A stretch of 64,000 nucleotides of DNA from Halococcus agarilyticus (lineage in GTDB: Archaea > Halobacteriota > Halobacteria > Halobacteriales > Halococcaceae), in NCBI RefSeq assembly GCF_000334895.1, contig NZ_BAFM01000016.1, positions 1-64,000 on the forward strand. The letters are read 5' to 3'. Shown here piece by piece: positions 25,123 through 35,408 of the stretch (position 1 is its first letter; every line of letters starts with the position of its first letter). The position numbers and the translations under genes were made by a program. The notes below the pieces were generated by a model. That model was not told where the DNA came from, searched no databases, and saw only the letters and a list, made by a program, of their open reading frames with translations.

Positions 25123-25659
25123 TTACGTCTCGCGACAGTTCGGACAGACGAGCTGTCCGTTCACGCTCACGAGATCGCGGGCGAGCGCGCCACAGGCCTC
25201 ACAGATCCCCTGGGTGTCGTACTCCGCCTCGGGATCGGTCGCTGTCGACGCCGGCCCGGTTCCGGTGTCGGCCTCGGGCACCAGCGTCGAGGCGACCACG
25301 ACGTCGTGGGCGGTCACCACGCCGACCGGGTCCTCCTCCTCGATCGCGAGGAGCCACCGGACACCCTCGCGCTCCATCGTTCCCGCCGCCGCCGCGAGCG
25401 ACTCTCCGGAGGAGACCTGAACCACGCCGTCGGACATGACGTCCGCGACGGTCGTCGCCGCCGGGTCGGTGTCGCTCGCCACCAGCGAGAGCGCGTCGCG
25501 TTCGCTCAGCATGCCGAGCGCGTCGCGACCCCGGAGCACGATCGCACACTCCGCGCCCTCCTCGAGCAGGAGCTCGACCGTCTCGACCACCCCGTCGCTC
25601 TCGCTCACCCCCACGAACTCGCGGGTCATCACGTCGCGCACGGTGACAGCACTACTCAT
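25123..25659 (-). CDS. Two-CBS-domain protein with C-terminal zinc ribbon
   Basis: A 178-residue cytoplasmic protein. The two CBS motifs span about 6-58 (VRDVMTREFVGV at its start) and 72-125 (VADVMSDGVVQV). They should pair into one Bateman module that binds adenosine nucleotides. The C-terminal part has C-x2-C twice (CEACG and CPNCR, about 150-175), a zinc ribbon. Such proteins are common in haloarchaea, and their partner is usually unknown. A strong TATA stretch (GTTTTTACTC, minus strand, about 25 bp upstream) supports the ATG at 25659. Confidence 0.85.
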   Translation of the reverse strand: MSSAVTVRDVMTREFVGVSESDGVVETVELLLEEGAECAIVLRGRDALGMLSERDALSLVASDTDPAATTVADVMSDGVVQVSSGESLAAAAGTMEREGVRWLLAIEEEDPVGVVTAHDVVVASTLVPEADTGTGPASTATDPEAEYDTQGICEACGALARDLVSVNGQLVCPNCRET

Positions 25660-25744: not shown

Positions 25745-26506
25745 TCAGTCGTCGATCACGACCGCCCGACCGTCGTGGCGACACGCTTCAAGGGCGTGTT
25801 TCGCGTCCATCCCCGCCTCGTGGGCGGTGGCTCCTTCCCCGACGCCGACTTTGAGCTCGACGTCGACCGTCTCGCGGACGTGCGAGACCGCGTCGCGGTA
25901 CTCCTCGGCAGTCATCCCCGCACAGACCGCGATGACGTTGTCGCCACCGACGAAGAAGGAAAGGGAGTCGTGGGCCCGCCGCATGTACCGCATCAGCTCG
26001 GCGTACCCCTGTTCGATGTTGATGAACGTGTCGAACTCGTTGAGCTCGTCGGTGTACTGGCCGGTGGCGTCGTTCACGTCGAAGTGGGCGATCCGGAGGT
26101 CGTCGTCCGTCCGGTCGGCGTCGGCGAGCGGATCGCCACGGAGCACGGATCGGCGATCCTTGTCCTGGGCGCTGCCAGCGTCTTGGAGCTGGTCCGTCGC
26201 GGTCCCGAGCGCCGCGATCGGCGCGGGATCGGCCGCGATGCTCAGGCTCACCGTCACCGGATACCGGTTGGCGACCGACTCCTGGATCAGGGCGTGGTCG
26301 TCGGTGTCGAGCCCGTTGGTGACCGCGATCATGTTGTCGAACCGCGAGAAGAAGACGTAGCCGTCGCGGTTGCCGAACAGCTGGGAGAGATCGGCGTACA
26401 GCCGGGACTGCATCGTCTGGAGGTCGACCTCGCGGCGCGGTTCGGGCGTGACCGTCCACGGCCCGTAGTTGTCGAGCTGGATGAGCGTCACCTGCGTGTT
26501 CGTCAT
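25745..26506 (-). CDS. gch3: GTP cyclohydrolase III
   Basis: A 253-residue archaeal GTP cyclohydrolase III, which turns GTP into 2-amino-5-formylamino-6-ribosylamino-pyrimidinone 5'-phosphate for riboflavin and F420 synthesis. The opening VTLIQLDNYGPWTVTPEPRREVDLQTMQ-type residues (about 6-33), FFSRFDNMIAVTNG (about 51-64) and the second-half FFVGGDNVIAVC (about 192-203) show the two palm-like subdomains with their metal-binding FDN/GDN motifs. A TATA-like AGTAAAATAC (minus) lies about 30 bp upstream. It is next to the pterin-like cluster, but FAPy formation and PTPS chemistry are different branches. Confidence 0.92.
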   Translation of the reverse strand: MTNTQVTLIQLDNYGPWTVTPEPRREVDLQTMQSRLYADLSQLFGNRDGYVFFSRFDNMIAVTNGLDTDDHALIQESVANRYPVTVSLSIAADPAPIAALGTATDQLQDAGSAQDKDRRSVLRGDPLADADRTDDDLRIAHFDVNDATGQYTDELNEFDTFINIEQGYAELMRYMRRAHDSLSFFVGGDNVIAVCAGMTAEEYRDAVSHVRETVDVELKVGVGEGATAHEAGMDAKHALEACRHDGRAVVIDD

Positions 26507-26642: not shown

Positions 26643-27446
26643 TTACCACCGTGTGTCGTCCGATCGAAGTCCGGCGAACGCCCCACGGATTCGCTGCCAC
26701 AGCGGTTCCAGGACCGGGTTCGCCCCGATACCGAGATACGCGCGCTGCGGGCGGTACTCGCCGGTTCGGAGCAGGTGCAGCGCGACCGCGGTCGCGCGGT
26801 GGTTGCCGTCGGCGATCGCCGGCGGTCCGCTGCCGCGGCGTTTCGTGAGCACGAGCGGCACCAGGCGGTCGGCGTCGGCGAGCGTCTCGGCCATCGAACA
26901 TGCCCGCTCGACGTCCACCCCCGTCTCGGCTTCGAGCGCCGCCCGATCGCCCGCCGCGATCCGTCGTGCCCCGTCCATCACGTTGCCGCTCGGCGCGAGC
27001 GCGTGCCAGGCGAGGCCGTCGGGACCGTCGACGAACCGCAGCCGCTCGAACTCCCCCCGACGGAGTGCGATGCGCGACCACTCGACCGGTCGCGCCCGCC
27101 AGAGGAAGGCGGCGGCTCCGGGCTTCCGCCGGAGCAGCGCGTCGAGCGCCTCGTCGTCGTCGAGCGCGTCGACCGCGTCTTCGATCGTTTCGCTCCCGTC
27201 GGGCGCGGTGGCGCTCCATTTCGATAGGGGAGTTCGATCGCCGTCGAGTGCTCCGGTCGCCGGGTCGTCGGACGGCTGCTCCCGGCGGCCGTCGGGCGTG
27301 TCCGCCCGTCGATCGTCGCGCGTGCCGCCTGGTTCGTCCTCGGTCACGAAGTCGGCCCCCTTCCGGACTTCGGCGGCGAGCCAGTGAGTTATCACTATCC
27401 GCTCCGCGACTCGCTCGCCCGCCCACGCCGCGCCGTCGGACGCCAC
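26643..27446 (-). CDS. Uncharacterised protein with ParB/sulfiredoxin-like motif
   Basis: A 267-residue protein, probably starting at a GTG 27 bp after the methyltransferase stop. The segment PPAIADGNHRATAVALHLL (about 208-226) resembles the nucleotide-binding DG-x-HR motif of ParB/Srx-fold proteins. An acidic low-complexity stretch (about 38-75) interrupts the N-terminal part. No catalytic assignment is safe. It is the last gene of the same-strand run that holds the PTPS, glycosyltransferase and methyltransferase genes, so it may act in that pathway, for example as a kinase- or nucleotidase-like step. Confidence 0.6.
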   Translation of the reverse strand: MASDGAAWAGERVAERIVITHWLAAEVRKGADFVTEDEPGGTRDDRRADTPDGRREQPSDDPATGALDGDRTPLSKWSATAPDGSETIEDAVDALDDDEALDALLRRKPGAAAFLWRARPVEWSRIALRRGEFERLRFVDGPDGLAWHALAPSGNVMDGARRIAAGDRAALEAETGVDVERACSMAETLADADRLVPLVLTKRRGSGPPAIADGNHRATAVALHLLRTGEYRPQRAYLGIGANPVLEPLWQRIRGAFAGLRSDDTRW

Positions 27447-27473: not shown

Positions 27474-28382
27474 TCAACGCTCCGCCGGGACGCGACCGAG
27501 CACGTCGAGCTGATGGGCGACGTAGGTCAGTTCGCCCCGATCGATCTGGCGGTGGCGTGCCGCGACCCAGCCGGCGAGCGTCCTCGGTTCGAACTTCCCT
27601 GTTTCATTGAGCGCGCCCGCGATCGTGTCCACGATGTATCTGAGGAAGAACGCCTCGTCGTCGGGGTACGCCCCCGATCGGGGATGGACAACCCAGTCGG
27701 AGCCGCCGGCGGCGAGCACCGTGTCCGTCTCGCTTGCACGGGCGAGGAGGTGGCGGCCGGCGTGGCTGTCGCCGCCGTCGTCGATGTGGGCGTGAAAGGC
27801 CCGCTCGATCCTCGTGTCGAGTTCGGGATCCACAGGTGGGGAGAGGATCGTTCCGCCGTCGAAGGTGATCGGGAAGTACCAGCAGCCGCCGGGACGGAGC
27901 CCATCGCGGAGGGCGTCGAACGCGTTCCGGGTATCGAACAGGTCGAGGAACGCCTGGCCGACCAGCAGGTCCCACGTGTCGCGCTCGACGTACTCGAAGG
28001 CGTCCGCAGTAACCGGTTCGATCTCGATTCGTCGGTCGTCGTTCTCGATGCGAAGCTCGTCGTCGATCGCGGTGACGTCGTGGCCCGCGTCGGCGGCCCA
28101 GCGCGACAGGCGTTCGCGTGCGGCGTCGACGTTCGCCGTCTGGTGGTCGACCAGCGTGTACTCGACGGCGTCCGGGAGCACGTCGCGCTCGACGAGGCGT
28201 TCGAGCGTCGCCCCCGTTCCCGCACCGACATCGAGCACGCGGAGCGCTCGCGCGCCCGCTTCGTCATCGAGTCTCGCCGCCGCGGTGGCCAGCCGATCGA
28301 GCACCTGACGGTCGAGCGCGCGGTCGTCGACCGTCCGCTTCGCGGCGAGATACCGCTGGAACCGCCCGTCAGGGCCCGACAT
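27474..28382 (-). CDS. Class I SAM-dependent methyltransferase
   Basis: A 302-residue methyltransferase. VLDVGAGTGATLERL (about 49-63) is SAM motif I, YTLVDHQTANVDAARERL the acidic loop region, and WDLLVGQAFLDLFD (about 137-150) motif IV. The C-terminal half is an extra domain of about 120 residues. Its ATG overlaps the end of the glycosyltransferase gene by 14 bp, indicating co-transcription and a shared pathway. The methyl acceptor is unknown; a pterin or sugar is suggested only by context. Confidence 0.82.
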   Translation of the reverse strand: MSGPDGRFQRYLAAKRTVDDRALDRQVLDRLATAAARLDDEAGARALRVLDVGAGTGATLERLVERDVLPDAVEYTLVDHQTANVDAARERLSRWAADAGHDVTAIDDELRIENDDRRIEIEPVTADAFEYVERDTWDLLVGQAFLDLFDTRNAFDALRDGLRPGGCWYFPITFDGGTILSPPVDPELDTRIERAFHAHIDDGGDSHAGRHLLARASETDTVLAAGGSDWVVHPRSGAYPDDEAFFLRYIVDTIAGALNETGKFEPRTLAGWVAARHRQIDRGELTYVAHQLDVLGRVPAER

Positions 28383-29508
28383 GATTCGGCCTCCCGGAGG
28401 GATTTCGGTGCTGTGGTCGTTCCATCGGTTCGGCACTGTCCGCAACGACCCCGTCGAGAAACGCTCGAACCCGGTCGGTGGTCTCGGCCCACGTCGGCCA
28501 CGCCGTGTAGCGTTCGCGGGCCGCCGTTCCCATCTCGGCCAGGCGTTCGCGATCGGCTTCGAGCGTTCGGACGGCGCGCGCCACCGTGCCGGGATCGCCG
28601 GGGCGGAGCAAGAATCCGGTCTCGCCGTGGGTGACGACCGCTCGCGCCCCGCCGGCGGTCGTGGCGAGCGCCGGCAGGCCGAAGCTCATCCCTTCGAGGT
28701 ACGCGATCCCGAACCCCTCGTGGGTCGAGGGCATCGCGAGCACGTGACTCCTGCTGAGAGCGTCCCGGAGCGCGCCGTCAGGGAGTTCGCCCGCGAACGT
28801 CACGCGGTCGTCGACGCCGAGCCCGGCGACCAGCCGACGGATCGACGAGGCGTATCTCGGGTTCGCGTCCGGGCTCCCGACGACGTGGAGCCGCCAGCGT
28901 TCGTCGGGGAGCCGCGACAGCCCCTCGATCAGGGTGTGGAGTCCCTTTCGGGGAACGAGACTTCCGACGAAGACCACGCGGAGCGGGCCCGATTCCCGGA
29001 CACGGGCCTCGATCGCGGCCGGGTCGATGACGGGGTCGAACCGATCGCCCGCCGGCGGCGCGACCGTCGTCTCGACCGTGGCGAGGTCTTCGACCGTTTC
29101 GCGTGTCGCCTCGCTGTTGCAGATCGCGCCATCGACGCCGGCGAGGTAGCGGCGCTCGACCGCGCGGTACAGCCCCTTTGCGGGGAGTGGGTGGGCCTCG
29201 CTGCTGCGGAGGTGGTGGACGATAGTGACGATCGGGATGTCGCGCCTGGCGCGCAGCCGCGCATTGAGCCCGACGAGTGAGGGATGTGCAAGTTCGTCCT
29301 GGAGCAGGACATCGACGGGAGCGTCGATCCGGTCGAGCAGCCGTGTCGAGAGGCCGTCGAGCAGCCCACGTGCGTAGTCGCGCCACGGGAGTTCGATCAC
29401 CTCGACGCGATCGCCGCGTTCGCGCAGGCCCTCGACGAGCTTGCGGTCGTACCGGAACCCGCCGGTGTTGGTGTCGAGGTCGCCGTAGCACACGAGGCCG
29501 ACGTTCAT
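28369..29508 (-). CDS. GT4-type glycosyltransferase
   Basis: A 379-residue GT-B-fold glycosyltransferase of family 4. The N-terminal domain opens with VGLVCYGDLDTNTGGFRYDR and VIELPWRDYARGL. The C-terminal domain has VVFVGSLVPRKGLHTLIEGL (about 173-192) and the nucleotide-sugar motif STHEGFGIAYLEGMSFGLP (about 262-280, with the E-x7-E glutamates). No membrane helix is apparent. The gene follows PTPS by 19 bp and overlaps the methyltransferase, so the acceptor may be a small cytoplasmic molecule made by PTPS rather than a cell-surface glycan. Confidence 0.88.
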   Translation of the reverse strand: MNVGLVCYGDLDTNTGGFRYDRKLVEGLRERGDRVEVIELPWRDYARGLLDGLSTRLLDRIDAPVDVLLQDELAHPSLVGLNARLRARRDIPIVTIVHHLRSSEAHPLPAKGLYRAVERRYLAGVDGAICNSEATRETVEDLATVETTVAPPAGDRFDPVIDPAAIEARVRESGPLRVVFVGSLVPRKGLHTLIEGLSRLPDERWRLHVVGSPDANPRYASSIRRLVAGLGVDDRVTFAGELPDGALRDALSRSHVLAMPSTHEGFGIAYLEGMSFGLPALATTAGGARAVVTHGETGFLLRPGDPGTVARAVRTLEADRERLAEMGTAARERYTAWPTWAETTDRVRAFLDGVVADSAEPMERPQHRNPSGRPNHVGP

Positions 29509-29527
29509 CGTTCCGGGTTCGTGGCGC

Positions 29528-29905
29528 TCACACCGACTCCTCGTAGGCGGCCCACGCGTCGTCGTCCTCCCAGATGGTGACCGTGAGCGTCGAGAGGTGG
29601 TCGGTGTCGAGTTCGTCGGCCGCGAGCCCCCAGACGACGCGCGCGAAGTGCTCGACGCTCGGGTTGTGGCCCTCAAATTTCGGGCGTTCGTTGAGCAGTT
29701 CGTCCTCGTAGCGCGCTCGGATCTCGGCGAGCACCCCTTCGACCGCTTCGATATCGACGAGGTAGTCGTACTCGTCGAGTTCGGGACCCGAAAGCGTGAG
29801 TTCGGCCTCGTAGTGATGGGAGTGGACCTCGCCTTCGGGCCCGGGATCGGGCACCGTGAGGTAGTGCTGGGCGACGAAATCCGCCATCACGCTGACCGTG
29901 TACAT
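29528..29905 (-). CDS. PTPS/QueD-family protein without catalytic cysteine
   Basis: A 125-residue T-fold enzyme of the 6-pyruvoyl-tetrahydropterin synthase family, acting on dihydroneopterin triphosphate or a relative. Zinc ligands are His14 (VAQHYL), His28 and His30 (VHSHHYEAEL). EGHNPSVEHFA (about 78-88) is the family's pterin-end motif. The protein contains no cysteine at all. Glu24 sits four residues before His28, where QueD has its catalytic cysteine, recalling PTPS-III enzymes that use glutamate. The ATG at 29905 follows an AT-rich ATAAATATC box (minus strand). An ATG six codons later is a weaker alternative start. Confidence 0.82.
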   Translation of the reverse strand: MYTVSVMADFVAQHYLTVPDPGPEGEVHSHHYEAELTLSGPELDEYDYLVDIEAVEGVLAEIRARYEDELLNERPKFEGHNPSVEHFARVVWGLAADELDTDHLSTLTVTIWEDDDAWAAYEESV

Positions 29906-29958
29906 ACCACTCGCACGACTGCCTGACATAAATATCGTCGCGCCGCGGAAGCGGCCGC

Positions 29959-30077
29959 GGTGGCGGTTGCGGAGCGGTGGCGGTTGCGGAGCGGTGGCGG
30001 TTGCGGAGCGGTGGCGGTTGCGGAGCGGTGGCGGTTGCGGAGCGGTGGCGGTTGCGGAGCGGTAGCGGTTGCGGGGC
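29959..30077. repeat. 17-bp tandem repeat, seven copies
   Basis: The unit GGTGGCGGTTGCGGAGC is repeated six times without a mismatch from 29959 to 30060. A seventh copy at 30061-30077 has two changes. The unit length is not a multiple of three, so the array is unlikely to be coding. It lies 54 bp upstream of the PTPS start, just behind its TATA box. Confidence 0.9.
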
Positions 30078-30092
30078 GGGCCTCGGCGGATG

Positions 30093-30275
30093 AAGGGCGA
30101 GGCGAACGAGCGAAGCGAGTGAGCCGAGGGCTTCGGTGGTGCTGTGTGTGGCGGGTGTGGAGAACGTCCGTGCGAGCGAAGCGAGCACGGTTCACCGTGA
30201 GCGAACGAAGTGAGCGAGCGGGTGTTTTTAGTCCAGGTTTTTGGAAGGGGTTCGAGTGCGAGCGGAGCGAGCACG
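30093..30275. repeat. Cluster of GCGAAGC-centred short palindromes
   Basis: Several quasi-palindromes of the form GAGCGAAGCGA or GAGCGGAGCGA follow one another (about 30103-30124, 30169-30189, 30200-30220, 30256-30274). The one at 30169 has outer arms CGTGC/GCACG. Such units recur in the gaps at 42.8-43.0 kb and 44.4-44.7 kb. No transposase is present. The stretch separates the PTPS promoter from the dehydrogenase terminator. Confidence 0.7.
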
Positions 30276-30287
30276 AGGACCCCTTGT

Positions 30288-30293
30288 AAAAAA
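30288..30293 (-). terminator. T-run terminator after the Zn-dehydrogenase gene
   Basis: Six T residues on the minus strand start 7 bp after the dehydrogenase stop. They are flanked by CCCC/GGGG arms that could form a small hairpin. This would end the dehydrogenase transcript before the repeat block. Confidence 0.55.
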
Positions 30294-30300
30294 GTGGGGC

Positions 30301-31311
30301 TTAGTAGGTGAGGAGCACCCCGATCGCCTCTCTCGGGCGTTCGTCGAGGAGGCGATAGGCGTCGTCGGCCCGCTCGATCGGGACCCGATGGGTGATGAAC
30401 CGTTCGGCGTCGATCCGTTCGAGGAGTCGGCAGGCCTCGCCTAACCGGCGTTCCTTCGACCACCGGCCGCGGTCGACGGGATCGACGGTGCTGACCTGGC
30501 TGCTCTGGAGGCGGATCCGACTCCGGTGGAAGGTCCCCCCGAGATCGAGATTCATGGGTTTCGTGCCGTACCACGACCCGATGACCACCTGACCGGCGGT
30601 GCCCACGACGCCGATGGCGTCGTCGAGCGCGTCGGGCTGGCCCGAGAGTTCGTAGGCGAGATCCGCGCCGCGAGGTGGCTCGTGACCGTCGAAGCGCGCG
30701 TCGAGGTCGTCGTCCGGATCGATCGCGGCGTCGGCTCCGAGCGACATCGACAGCGCCCGCCGGCGCTCGTAGCCGTCGACGGTGACCAGCGTTTCGAGCG
30801 GGAGGTCGGCGAGCAACGCGGTGGTGAGGAGGCCGACGACGCCCTGGCCGAACACCGCGACGCGCTCGCCGATCGCGGGCCGGCCATCCAAGAGGAAGTT
30901 GACGGCGGCCTCGGCGTTCGCCAGCAGCGCGGCCTCGGCGTCCGAGAGGGCCTCGGGAACCTCGCGGAGTGCCGCCGGCGTGGTGACGAAGTGGCTCTCG
31001 TGGGGGTTGAACCCGAACACCCGACGATCGAGCCACGCGTCGTCGACGTCGCTGCCGACGGCCGTCACCCGGCCGACGGCTGCGTAGCCGTACTGGAGCG
31101 GGTACTCGAAGTCGCCGTCGAGCGCGTCGATCGACTCGTCGGCCGCCATCGATTCCGGCACCTCGCCGCGGTACACCAGCAGCTCCGTGCCGGCGCTGAT
31201 GGCCGACGCCGCCGTGCGGACTCGCACCTCCTCGTCGGCCGGTTCCGGGACCGCCGTCTCGCGGAGTTCGAGCGCGCTCGGATCGGTGAAGTACAGCGAG
31301 CGCGCCGTCAT
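30301..31311 (-). CDS. Zn-dependent alcohol dehydrogenase-like oxidoreductase
   Basis: A 336-residue medium-chain dehydrogenase/reductase. The N-terminal catalytic domain has SAISAGTELLVYRG (about 36-49) in place of the usual Cys-containing zinc site, and YGYAAVGRVTAVG follows. The Rossmann domain carries VAVFGQGVVGLLTT (about 151-164) and LVTVDGYERRRALSMSLGADAAID. The normal C-G-S-D catalytic zinc cysteine is absent, so the metal may be missing or bound differently. This variant is the sort found beside PTPS and glycosyltransferase genes. In such a set it could reduce a pterin side chain, but this is inference. Confidence 0.8.
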   Translation of the reverse strand: MTARSLYFTDPSALELRETAVPEPADEEVRVRTAASAISAGTELLVYRGEVPESMAADESIDALDGDFEYPLQYGYAAVGRVTAVGSDVDDAWLDRRVFGFNPHESHFVTTPAALREVPEALSDAEAALLANAEAAVNFLLDGRPAIGERVAVFGQGVVGLLTTALLADLPLETLVTVDGYERRRALSMSLGADAAIDPDDDLDARFDGHEPPRGADLAYELSGQPDALDDAIGVVGTAGQVVIGSWYGTKPMNLDLGGTFHRSRIRLQSSQVSTVDPVDRGRWSKERRLGEACRLLERIDAERFITHRVPIERADDAYRLLDERPREAIGVLLTY

Positions 31312-33721: not shown

Positions 33722-34374
33722 GTCGGTCGCGCTCGCGGTACGACCTCCAGGTCCACACCGACGCCTCGCCGTGCTCGGCGACGTCACCCGCAGCGGTCGC
33801 CCGCGCAGCCGAGAAGGCCGATCTCGACGGGATCGTCGTCACCGATCACGACACGCTCGCAAACGTCGATCGCGTTCGATCGTGCGCACCTGACGATCTC
33901 GATGTCGTCTCGGGCGTCGAAGTCACGACCACTCAGGGCCACCTCCTCGGGATCGACGTCGAGCGCGCACCTCCCCAAACCGATCCGCTCTCCGTGATCG
34001 ACGACATCCACGACCAGGACGGACTGACGGTGCTCTCCCATCCGTTCGACGCGCTCCGCCAGATCTACGACACCGATCTCGCCGAACTCGCGGCGGCGGT
34101 CGACGGCGTCGAAGCGATCAACGCACGGTGTGTTCGCGAGTCGTTCAACCGCGAAGCCCAGGCGTTCGCCGCCCACCACGACCTCGCGACGACCGGCGGC
34201 AGCGATGCGCACTTCCCGATGGAGGTCGGGCGCGCGTACACCGAGTGTGAGGGATCGCTCCGCGAGGCCATCCGATCCGGCACGACCGTTCCGCAGGGTC
34301 GCGGCCGATATCTCTCGGGCCACGTCGCCACCAAGCTGCACCAAGCACGCCGCGCGGTCGCGGGGTGGCGGTGA
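33718..34374 (+). CDS. PHP-domain phosphoesterase
   Basis: A 218-residue polymerase-and-histidinol-phosphatase domain protein. The metal-binding motifs are YDLQVHTDASPCS (His14), VVTDHDTLANV (Asp-His-Asp near 42), the SHPFDA motif and the closing GGSDAHFP. It is likely a phosphatase or phosphodiesterase with two or three metal ions. Its ATG overlaps the UbiA stop and its own stop overlaps the next ATG (TGATG), so all three are one operon. In mycobacteria the product of DPPR synthase must lose a 5-phosphate; this enzyme is a candidate for that step here. Confidence 0.82.
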   Translation: MSRSRSRYDLQVHTDASPCSATSPAAVARAAEKADLDGIVVTDHDTLANVDRVRSCAPDDLDVVSGVEVTTTQGHLLGIDVERAPPQTDPLSVIDDIHDQDGLTVLSHPFDALRQIYDTDLAELAAAVDGVEAINARCVRESFNREAQAFAAHHDLATTGGSDAHFPMEVGRAYTECEGSLREAIRSGTTVPQGRGRYLSGHVATKLHQARRAVAGWR

Positions 34375-35408
34375 TGGCGGAGTACCGCGAGGCGAGCGGC
34401 GACCGACCCGGTGGCGCGGATCCCGGCGACGACGCCGACGATCAGTCCGGCCGGCTTCGGCGATGGGTGAGCGAGCACGGCGTCCAGGCCACCGCGGTGC
34501 TCACACTCGTGGTGTTCGGCGCGCTCTTCCTCTACGCCGACGCCGGTGCGGTCGTCGATGCCTTCTCCCGGTTCGAGTGGCCCGCCTTCGCCGCGGTGAT
34601 CGGGCTCACTACTGTGGGCTATGCCTTCCGGTTCGGAAAGTGGGAGTTCTACCTTCGGGAGCTCGGGGTCGACATCCCTCTGAAGACCAGCCTCACGGTG
34701 TTTTTCAGCGGGCTGATGATGGTCGTCACCCCCGGAAAGGCCGGTGAGGTCTGGAAGGCGTGGCTGCTGCGCGACATGGAGGGGACCCCAGCGAGCCTCA
34801 CGACCTCGGTGGTCGGAGCCGAGCGCGTGACCGACCTGATTTCCCTCTCGATGCTCGCCGGAGTCGGCGTCGTTGCGTACGGCCGCTCGCCCGCGGTCCT
34901 GATCGCACTCGCGGTCGCCTTCGCCGCCGGAATCGGGCTGCTCCAGTGGCGCGCGGGCTGCCTCCGACTGCTCGACGCCGCCGCATCGCTCCCGGTCGTC
35001 GGCCAGTACGCCACGTCGCTCGAACGGTTCTACGAGAGCACCTACGCCCTCTTCCGACTCCGCCCGCTCTCGGTGGCCACCCTGCTGGGGATCGTCGCGT
35101 GGGGGCTCGAAGGCGTCGCACTCTGGATCGTGCTCGCGGGGTTCGGTGTCGAGGCCGCGCTGCTCGTGGGAGTGTTCGTCTTCGCGCTCGGCTCCGTGAT
35201 CGGTGCGGTCAGCATGCTCCCGGGGGGGCTCGGCGCGGCCGAGGCGAGCATGGCCGGTCTCCTGCTCACCTTCGGGATCGCCGAATCGGTGGCGGCGGGC
35301 GCGACGATGGTGATCCGGGTCGGCACGCTCTGGTACGCGGCGGTCCTCGGGTTCGTCGTATTCTCGGTGCACAAGTACCGCGCCGACGAGTCGGGTCCCG
35401 ACGTGTGA
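34374..35408 (+). CDS. Flippase-like membrane protein (LPG synthase TM / UPF0104 type)
   Basis: A 344-residue protein with about eight transmembrane helices. FFSGLMMVVTPGKAGEVWKAWLL (about 106-128) and the late SMLPGGLGAAEASMAGLL (about 279-296) are family signatures of the MprF-like flippase domain. The catalytic lysyl-transferase domain of MprF is absent, so it is expected to move or bind a lipid. The first 35 residues are polar and acidic. Coupled to the UbiA and PHP genes, it may flip the polyprenyl-linked sugar to the outer face. Confidence 0.8.
   Translation: MAEYREASGDRPGGADPGDDADDQSGRLRRWVSEHGVQATAVLTLVVFGALFLYADAGAVVDAFSRFEWPAFAAVIGLTTVGYAFRFGKWEFYLRELGVDIPLKTSLTVFFSGLMMVVTPGKAGEVWKAWLLRDMEGTPASLTTSVVGAERVTDLISLSMLAGVGVVAYGRSPAVLIALAVAFAAGIGLLQWRAGCLRLLDAAASLPVVGQYATSLERFYESTYALFRLRPLSVATLLGIVAWGLEGVALWIVLAGFGVEAALLVGVFVFALGSVIGAVSMLPGGLGAAEASMAGLLLTFGIAESVAAGATMVIRVGTLWYAAVLGFVVFSVHKYRADESGPDV

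Follow-up and report, generated by a model that had tools for sequence, protein, structure and literature searches.

The 64,000-nucleotide stretch analyzed in this study (the window; positions 1 to 64,000 of contig NZ_BAFM01000016.1 of Halococcus agarilyticus) contains a compact group of genes that encode a dehydrogenase (ADH), a PTPS-family protein, a GT4 glycosyltransferase, and an S-adenosylmethionine (SAM)-dependent methyltransferase (MT). These four genes form one conserved module, to which ADH is dedicated, and they are gained and lost together; the gene of GTP cyclohydrolase III (GCH III; ArfA) lies close by. The explanation that we favor, with somewhat more confidence than doubt, is a dedicated module, shared by archaea and bacteria, for the synthesis of a small molecule that derives from ring-opened GTP. 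The evidence consists of the observed linkage and co-loss of the genes, their family assignments, the replacement of one cyclohydrolase by a nonhomologous one, the fusion of a cyclohydrolase to ADH, and the loss of catalytic residues from PTPS.

All coordinates below are window positions, and all protein genes listed are on the minus strand. ADH (30301-31311) is a zinc-independent MDR dehydrogenase that resembles BchC (PF00107, E = 5e-12). It is followed by PTPS (29528-29905; 125 amino acids; PF01242, E = 3e-27), a tunnel-fold protein of the PTPS-IV type in which the catalytic Cys is replaced by Glu, by the retaining glycosyltransferase GT4 (28369-29508; PF00534, E = 1e-35), and by MT (27474-28382; PF08242, E = 2.4e-8). 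The start of PTPS is the ATG at 29905 (MYTVSV...), which matches the family start, and the start of MT at 28382 was chosen by homology and family start, the longest open reading frame beginning at 28445. PTPS and GT4 are separated by 19 nt, GT4 and MT share 14 nt, and 27 nt separate MT from a ParB-like gene, in agreement with a sequence-only reading of this DNA that had grouped these five genes and described overlaps or short gaps from PTPS onward; all five are present, four of them with family matches. That reading did not include ArfA and a CBS-domain gene downstream, ArfA lying just outside the interval it covered. ArfA (25745-26506) matches PF05165 (294 bits, cutoff 21.3; E = 8.4e-88) and NF002587 (415.6 bits, cutoff 306; E = 8.4e-125), in both cases above the cutoff.

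PTPS scores 95.4 bits against PF01242 (cutoff 22.4) and thus belongs to the PTPS/COG0720 superfamily. Its AlphaFold model takes a confident PTPS fold (pLDDT = 88.7; Z-scores of 12 to 15 to PTPS structures), and the nearest match in both structure and sequence is SCO6650 of Streptomyces coelicolor (3d7j; Foldseek 1.1e-7, Z-score = 14.7), followed by the structure of QueD (Z-score = 13.7, RMSD = 2.5 over 111 residues). The catalytic Cys is replaced by Glu in all 106 haloarchaeal PTPS sequences, so that the term "cysteine-less" in the sequence-only reading was right at the catalytic position, and by Ala in 10 of 10 bacterial members, whereas it is Cys in 19 of 19 QueD controls. The Asp-His dyad, present in all 19 QueD controls, is found in none of the 106. 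On the other hand, the zinc-type His residues are kept in 103 to 105 of the 106 sequences, and the ring-anchoring Glu in 104, the other two having Asp. The CxxxHGH motif of QueD (PTPS-I) is absent from all 106, and the ExxHGH motif of PTPS-III is not present in the window protein, which reads EGEVHSH, with Glu at positions -4 and -2 and Gly at -3 relative to the first His. In the phylogenetic tree, in which the branch of E. coli QueD is long, the haloarchaeal and bacterial cluster proteins group apart from QueD (support 98/90). PTPS-IV shares the fold and the anchoring Glu with QueD but differs from it in the Cys, the Asp-His dyad, the linkage to QueC, and the clade. Because the anchoring Glu is kept while the Cys and the dyad are lost, the established PTPS mechanism suggests that PTPS-IV should bind a 2-amino-4-oxopyrimidine ring and would be unable to carry out ordinary PTPS chemistry. 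Relatives are automatically annotated as 6-carboxytetrahydropterin synthase, a widespread annotation that is corrected here for this PTPS group. In Haloarcula marismortui ATCC 43049, the gene (L056:9001-9324) is unannotated and the match covers only residues 12 to 119; the gene is perhaps damaged, or else annotation overlooked it.

The zinc-ligand sites of ADH read SxGTE and YGY, and the S, G, T, and E of the former and the whole of the latter are invariant in 80 homologues. With a single Cys, the protein does not have the Cys/His catalytic zinc ligands of zinc-dependent alcohol dehydrogenases, as the sequence-only reading had noticed. It is not assigned to BchC, since its match to TIGR01202 (bchC; E = 5.5e-25, 88.1 bits) is under the cutoff of 291.25. 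The E-x7-E motif of GT4 is present in every one of the 70 sequences that have letters at that site, and motif I of MT is conserved.

The co-occurrence proposed earlier as a check was evaluated on PTPS-IV-type loci with 8-kb flanks (less at contig ends) from 80 haloarchaeal genomes, i.e., 81 loci with the window, and on 20 control loci that contain QueD, the other PTPS paralogue; family profiles were run on six-frame translations. Within 8 kb of PTPS-IV, ADH is found at 70 of the 81 loci, GT4 at 67, MT at 55, and ArfA at 36, whereas the QueD controls have ADH at 2 loci and ArfA, GT4, and MT at none. QueC shows the opposite distribution (2/81 versus 19/20). Other neighbors of PTPS-IV are DUF7475 (44 loci), a CDP-alcohol phosphatidyltransferase (41 loci, with the catalytic motif intact in 41/41), a MocA-type oxidoreductase (27 loci), and a sulfatase-like protein (22 loci). 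ArfA is on the PTPS strand in all 36 linked loci, upstream of PTPS in 30 and downstream in 6, which indicates that the linkage outlasted rearrangement. As a single gene in approximately 3.4 Mb, it should by chance fall inside the 8-kb flanks in fewer than 1 in 200 cases; no P value is given for this linkage because the loci are related by descent.

The genes also disappear together. In a phylum-wide sample, the window ADH was detected (E = 1e-30 or better) in 40 genomes, all of which have the PTPS-IV type, and the two genes adjoin in 39 of them, being apart only in G052. Among 20 haloarchaeal genomes without any PTPS, ADH is missing at a threshold of 1e-20 in 19, and the remaining genome has a 29% identical protein; nine ADH-negative haloarchaeal genomes have a PTPS of no assigned type, and a perfect 2x2 table and a binomial figure calculated for the two genes were set aside, since in view of these nine they would overstate the association.

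The core ADH-PTPS-GT4-MT is also present in Actinomycetota, Alphaproteobacteria, and Gammaproteobacteria. In the bacterial clusters, which were taken from plasmid records only, it is found on records of Thiodictyon, Streptomyces, Microbacterium, Methylosinus, Neorhizobium, Rhizobium, Allorhizobium, Peteryoungia, and Agrobacterium, and Palleronia and Rhodobacteraceae SC52 have ADH-PTPS-MT. These clusters are surrounded by varying mixes of RibA, RibD_C (the reductase domain only), creatininase, CDP-alcohol phosphatidyltransferase, LPG_synthase_TM flippase, cytochrome b561, and sulfatase. The cyclohydrolase near the cluster is GCH III in haloarchaea and RibA (GTP cyclohydrolase II, GCH II) in bacteria and in two other archaea; one of the latter (L198) has the order MT-RibA-ADH-PTPS-GT4 and a creatininase close by, and in the other (L199, 1990-3723), RibA is fused to ADH in one 577-amino-acid protein. 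Haloarchaea, Streptomyces, and rhizobia thus share a compact gene set in which one slot is filled by unrelated cyclohydrolases. GCH II and GCH III both open the ring of GTP and give a pyrimidine, and this exchange argues that the entry compound is probably ring-opened GTP, i.e., a formylaminopyrimidine (FAPy) or aminopyrimidine (APy), rather than a ready-made pterin. In both Streptomyces clusters, which carry a creatininase, RibA has Met at the position of the E. coli Tyr; the RibA proteins of seven alphaproteobacterial clusters keep Tyr, and no creatininase was found beside these; this correlation comes from two bacterial groups, and L198 combines Tyr with a nearby creatininase. With Met at this position, the GCH II homologue SCO6655 reportedly halts at FAPy, which is also what GCH III produces (Spoonamore, 2006). 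FAPy as the product would require a deformylase, which fits a creatininase-type ArfB. Solitary SCO6650-like PTPS genes without ADH-GT4-MT occur on three Streptomyces plasmids (L052, L187, and L188), with cupin and MBL-fold genes as neighbors and a MEKHLA-domain gene in L187 and L188, and the protein may have a different use there.

Taken together, the families and their arrangement suggest a route from GTP to the product. ArfA is probably the first enzyme, which would open GTP to FAPy as RibA would in bacteria. Deformylation by a creatininase-type ArfB and reduction by a RibD_C-type ArfC would then yield diamino-(ribitylamino)pyrimidinone phosphate. The genes for this second step are outside the cluster in the window genome, which holds four creatininases and one GCHY-1 and in which ArfC is a single-copy gene on the same contig (C16:73518). 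PTPS-IV would hold the 2-amino-4-oxopyrimidine ring by its conserved Glu, either for a side-chain reaction unlike that of PTPS or for closure of a pteridine ring, and the zinc-free ADH would alter an alcohol or ketone of the side chain, after which GT4 and MT would add a sugar and a methyl group, respectively. Finally, a CDP-alcohol phosphatidyltransferase, a MocA/aldo-keto reductase-type oxidoreductase, and a DUF7475 membrane protein could link the product to a lipid or polyol. The last three are encoded, together with a small membrane protein, in a block on contig C1 (L179); the genes of this block are those that adjoin the cluster in other haloarchaea, and the MocA-type oxidoreductase is fused to an aldo/keto reductase in Haloarcula. 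We infer that the product is a glycosylated, methylated pyrimidine or pteridine, perhaps lipid-linked. A more elaborate and rather unlikely form of this proposal is a membrane-anchored cofactor, in which a GTP-derived pyrimidine or pteridine with a sugar and a methyl group carries a polyol that the CDP-alcohol phosphatidyltransferase would join to lipid, the whole being flipped outward beside cytochrome b561 in bacteria; if so, archaea and bacteria would make a membrane-anchored redox carrier or photoprotectant. Cells with the cluster are predicted to make a new GTP-derived compound that probably absorbs UV light.

Several observations weigh against a dedicated pathway from ring-opened GTP. 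Related genomes inherit clusters by descent, so the locus counts are not independent, and only 36 of the 81 loci have ArfA inside the 8-kb range. Near the haloarchaeal clusters, creatininase is found in 3 of 80 and RibD_C in none of 80. ArfA is the only copy in the genome and also serves riboflavin and F420, so its linkage is no proof of a dedicated step; deletion of HVO_1284 (ArfA) results in riboflavin auxotrophy (PMC8305020). The RibA proteins of L198 and L199 carry Tyr, for which the expected product is APy, not FAPy, and three of six nonhaloarchaeal archaeal loci (L198, L200, and L201) have GCHY-1, a dihydroneopterin-forming enzyme, close to the cluster. Moreover, the bacterial cluster PTPS proteins are without the third zinc-binding His (HGA) whereas the haloarchaeal proteins keep all three, and the chemistry is possibly not identical in the two groups.

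One alternative starts from dihydroneopterin phosphate (the product of MptA/GCHY-1) and ends in a glycosylated, methylated tetrahydropterin, with the ArfA linkage being incidental. It would account for a PTPS fold with the pterin-anchoring Glu, for GCHY-1 in the window genome and near the cluster in those three loci, and it has precedents in the pteridine glycosides of cyanobacteria, Chlorobium, and Sulfolobus, the last being the glycosylated solfapterin (PMC3546692). One such pathway, that of tetrahydrobiopterin (BH4)-glucoside and cyanopterin in cyanobacteria, uses FolE, PTPS-II, SR, and PgtA and thus likewise combines a PTPS-fold protein, a reductase, and a glycosyltransferase on a GTP-derived ring (PMC3546692). 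It differs from the present cluster in its entry enzyme, which is GTP cyclohydrolase I and not GCH II or GCH III, in its PTPS-II, which has the catalytic Cys, and in that its description there mentions neither a CDP-alcohol transferase nor RibD (PMC3546692). Against the tetrahydropterin, no GCHY-1 was found near any of the 80 fetched haloarchaeal loci; RibA or GCH III occupies the position instead, including the RibA-ADH fusion, and the catalytic Cys, Asp, and His of PTPS are all gone. The tetrahydropterin therefore seems possible but less probable. It is the product that the sequence-only reading had proposed, of which the glycosylated and methylated part agrees with the co-conserved enzyme set, whereas the tetrahydropterin part does not agree with the conserved partner, GCH III or RibA, that yields a pyrimidine. 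Its remark that it knew of no pteridine glycosides described from haloarchaea is doubtful, as Lin and White reportedly described sulfohalopterin-2 from Haloarcula marismortui.

If PTPS-IV assisted in making F420 or riboflavin, the linkage to ArfA would be explained, and Zallot et al. (2016), on the basis of unpublished results and giving no motif for it, assign a "PTPS-IV" to the F420 pathway (PMC5041015), which supports such a role provided that their PTPS-IV equals the present subgroup. The ArfA-ArfB-ArfC series of archaeal riboflavin and F420 synthesis shares ArfA itself with the cluster, and the RibA, creatininase, and RibD_C of the bacterial clusters correspond to equal types of step, but the cluster adds PTPS, ADH, GT4, and MT, which those pathways lack; a glycosyltransferase and a methyltransferase play no part in F420 core synthesis. 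The same 20 PTPS-less haloarchaeal genomes, 19 of them without ADH, retain ArfA (16/20) and CofH-like proteins (20/20; matches under the curated cutoff, in these genomes and in the window genome alike), which makes this role improbable. The cluster also varies within the genus of the window, being present in G000 and G044 and absent from G156. The remaining four PTPS-less genomes (G078, G088, G139, and G144), all of one genus, have no GCH III match at all.

If the module instead served an envelope glycan or lipid, with a nonpyrimidine substrate for PTPS and ADH and with RibA or ArfA as a chance neighbor, the CDP-alcohol transferase, flippase, sulfatase-like, and glycosyltransferase genes around the clusters would fit in. 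We give this reading little credence, since RibA, GCH III, and RibD_C recur across the domains, RibA is fused to ADH, and the ring-anchoring Glu is retained. Archaeosine (preQ0) synthesis with PTPS as QueD, for which the automatic annotation speaks, is excluded for practical purposes, because a search of the window genome turned up neither a full QueC nor another PTPS and the haloarchaeal QueD is a separate, QueC-linked clade with the CxxxHGH motif that PTPS-IV is missing; the concern in the sequence-only reading that PTPS might serve only this chemistry is thus removed.

Among known systems, the pathway from ring-opened GTP has its closest counterpart in the SCO6650-type cluster of Streptomyces, with which the haloarchaeal cluster shares the order ADH-PTPS-GT4-MT and a PTPS clade apart from QueD. 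In Streptomyces, these genes are accompanied by RibA and creatininase, whereas the haloarchaeal clusters have the unrelated GCH III in place of RibA, and their PTPS has three zinc-type His residues and Glu where the bacterial proteins have Ala in place of the Cys. SCO6650 and the GCH II homologue SCO6655 in its neighborhood are the closest proteins that have been studied; SCO6650 is reported to lack zinc and the catalytic triad, and SCO6655 to make FAPy. Literature searches for halopterins, solfapterin, SCO6650/6655, and the cluster gene names found no description of the cluster, its product, or its function.

The 395-nt gap between ADH and PTPS contains a near-perfect 17-bp tandem repeat (29957-30079, strandless; 7.2 copies, 98% match), and a TATA-like TTTATG stands immediately before PTPS, so ADH may be transcribed separately from PTPS onward. 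The ParB-like gene (26643-27446; no Pfam match at E = 0.1), which had been counted as a member of the set, is accessory and was rejected as a core part because profile-detected relatives are near only 9 of the 81 PTPS-IV loci; its protein has a DGNHRATA motif reminiscent of ParB/sulfiredoxin-like folds. An apparently common neighbor profile (f20) was discarded as a shadow open reading frame antisense to GT4. The epimerase, UbiA, and flippase genes upstream of ADH in the window were also rejected, as their homologues are near only 1 or 2 of the 80 haloarchaeal clusters; the flippase (LPG_synthase_TM, 34365-35408), 3 kb upstream of the cluster, is of a family shared with the bacterial clusters. 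The CBS-domain gene (25123-25659; PF00571, E = 2.2e-16) adjoins ArfA in the window and also in the closest relative (locus L002).

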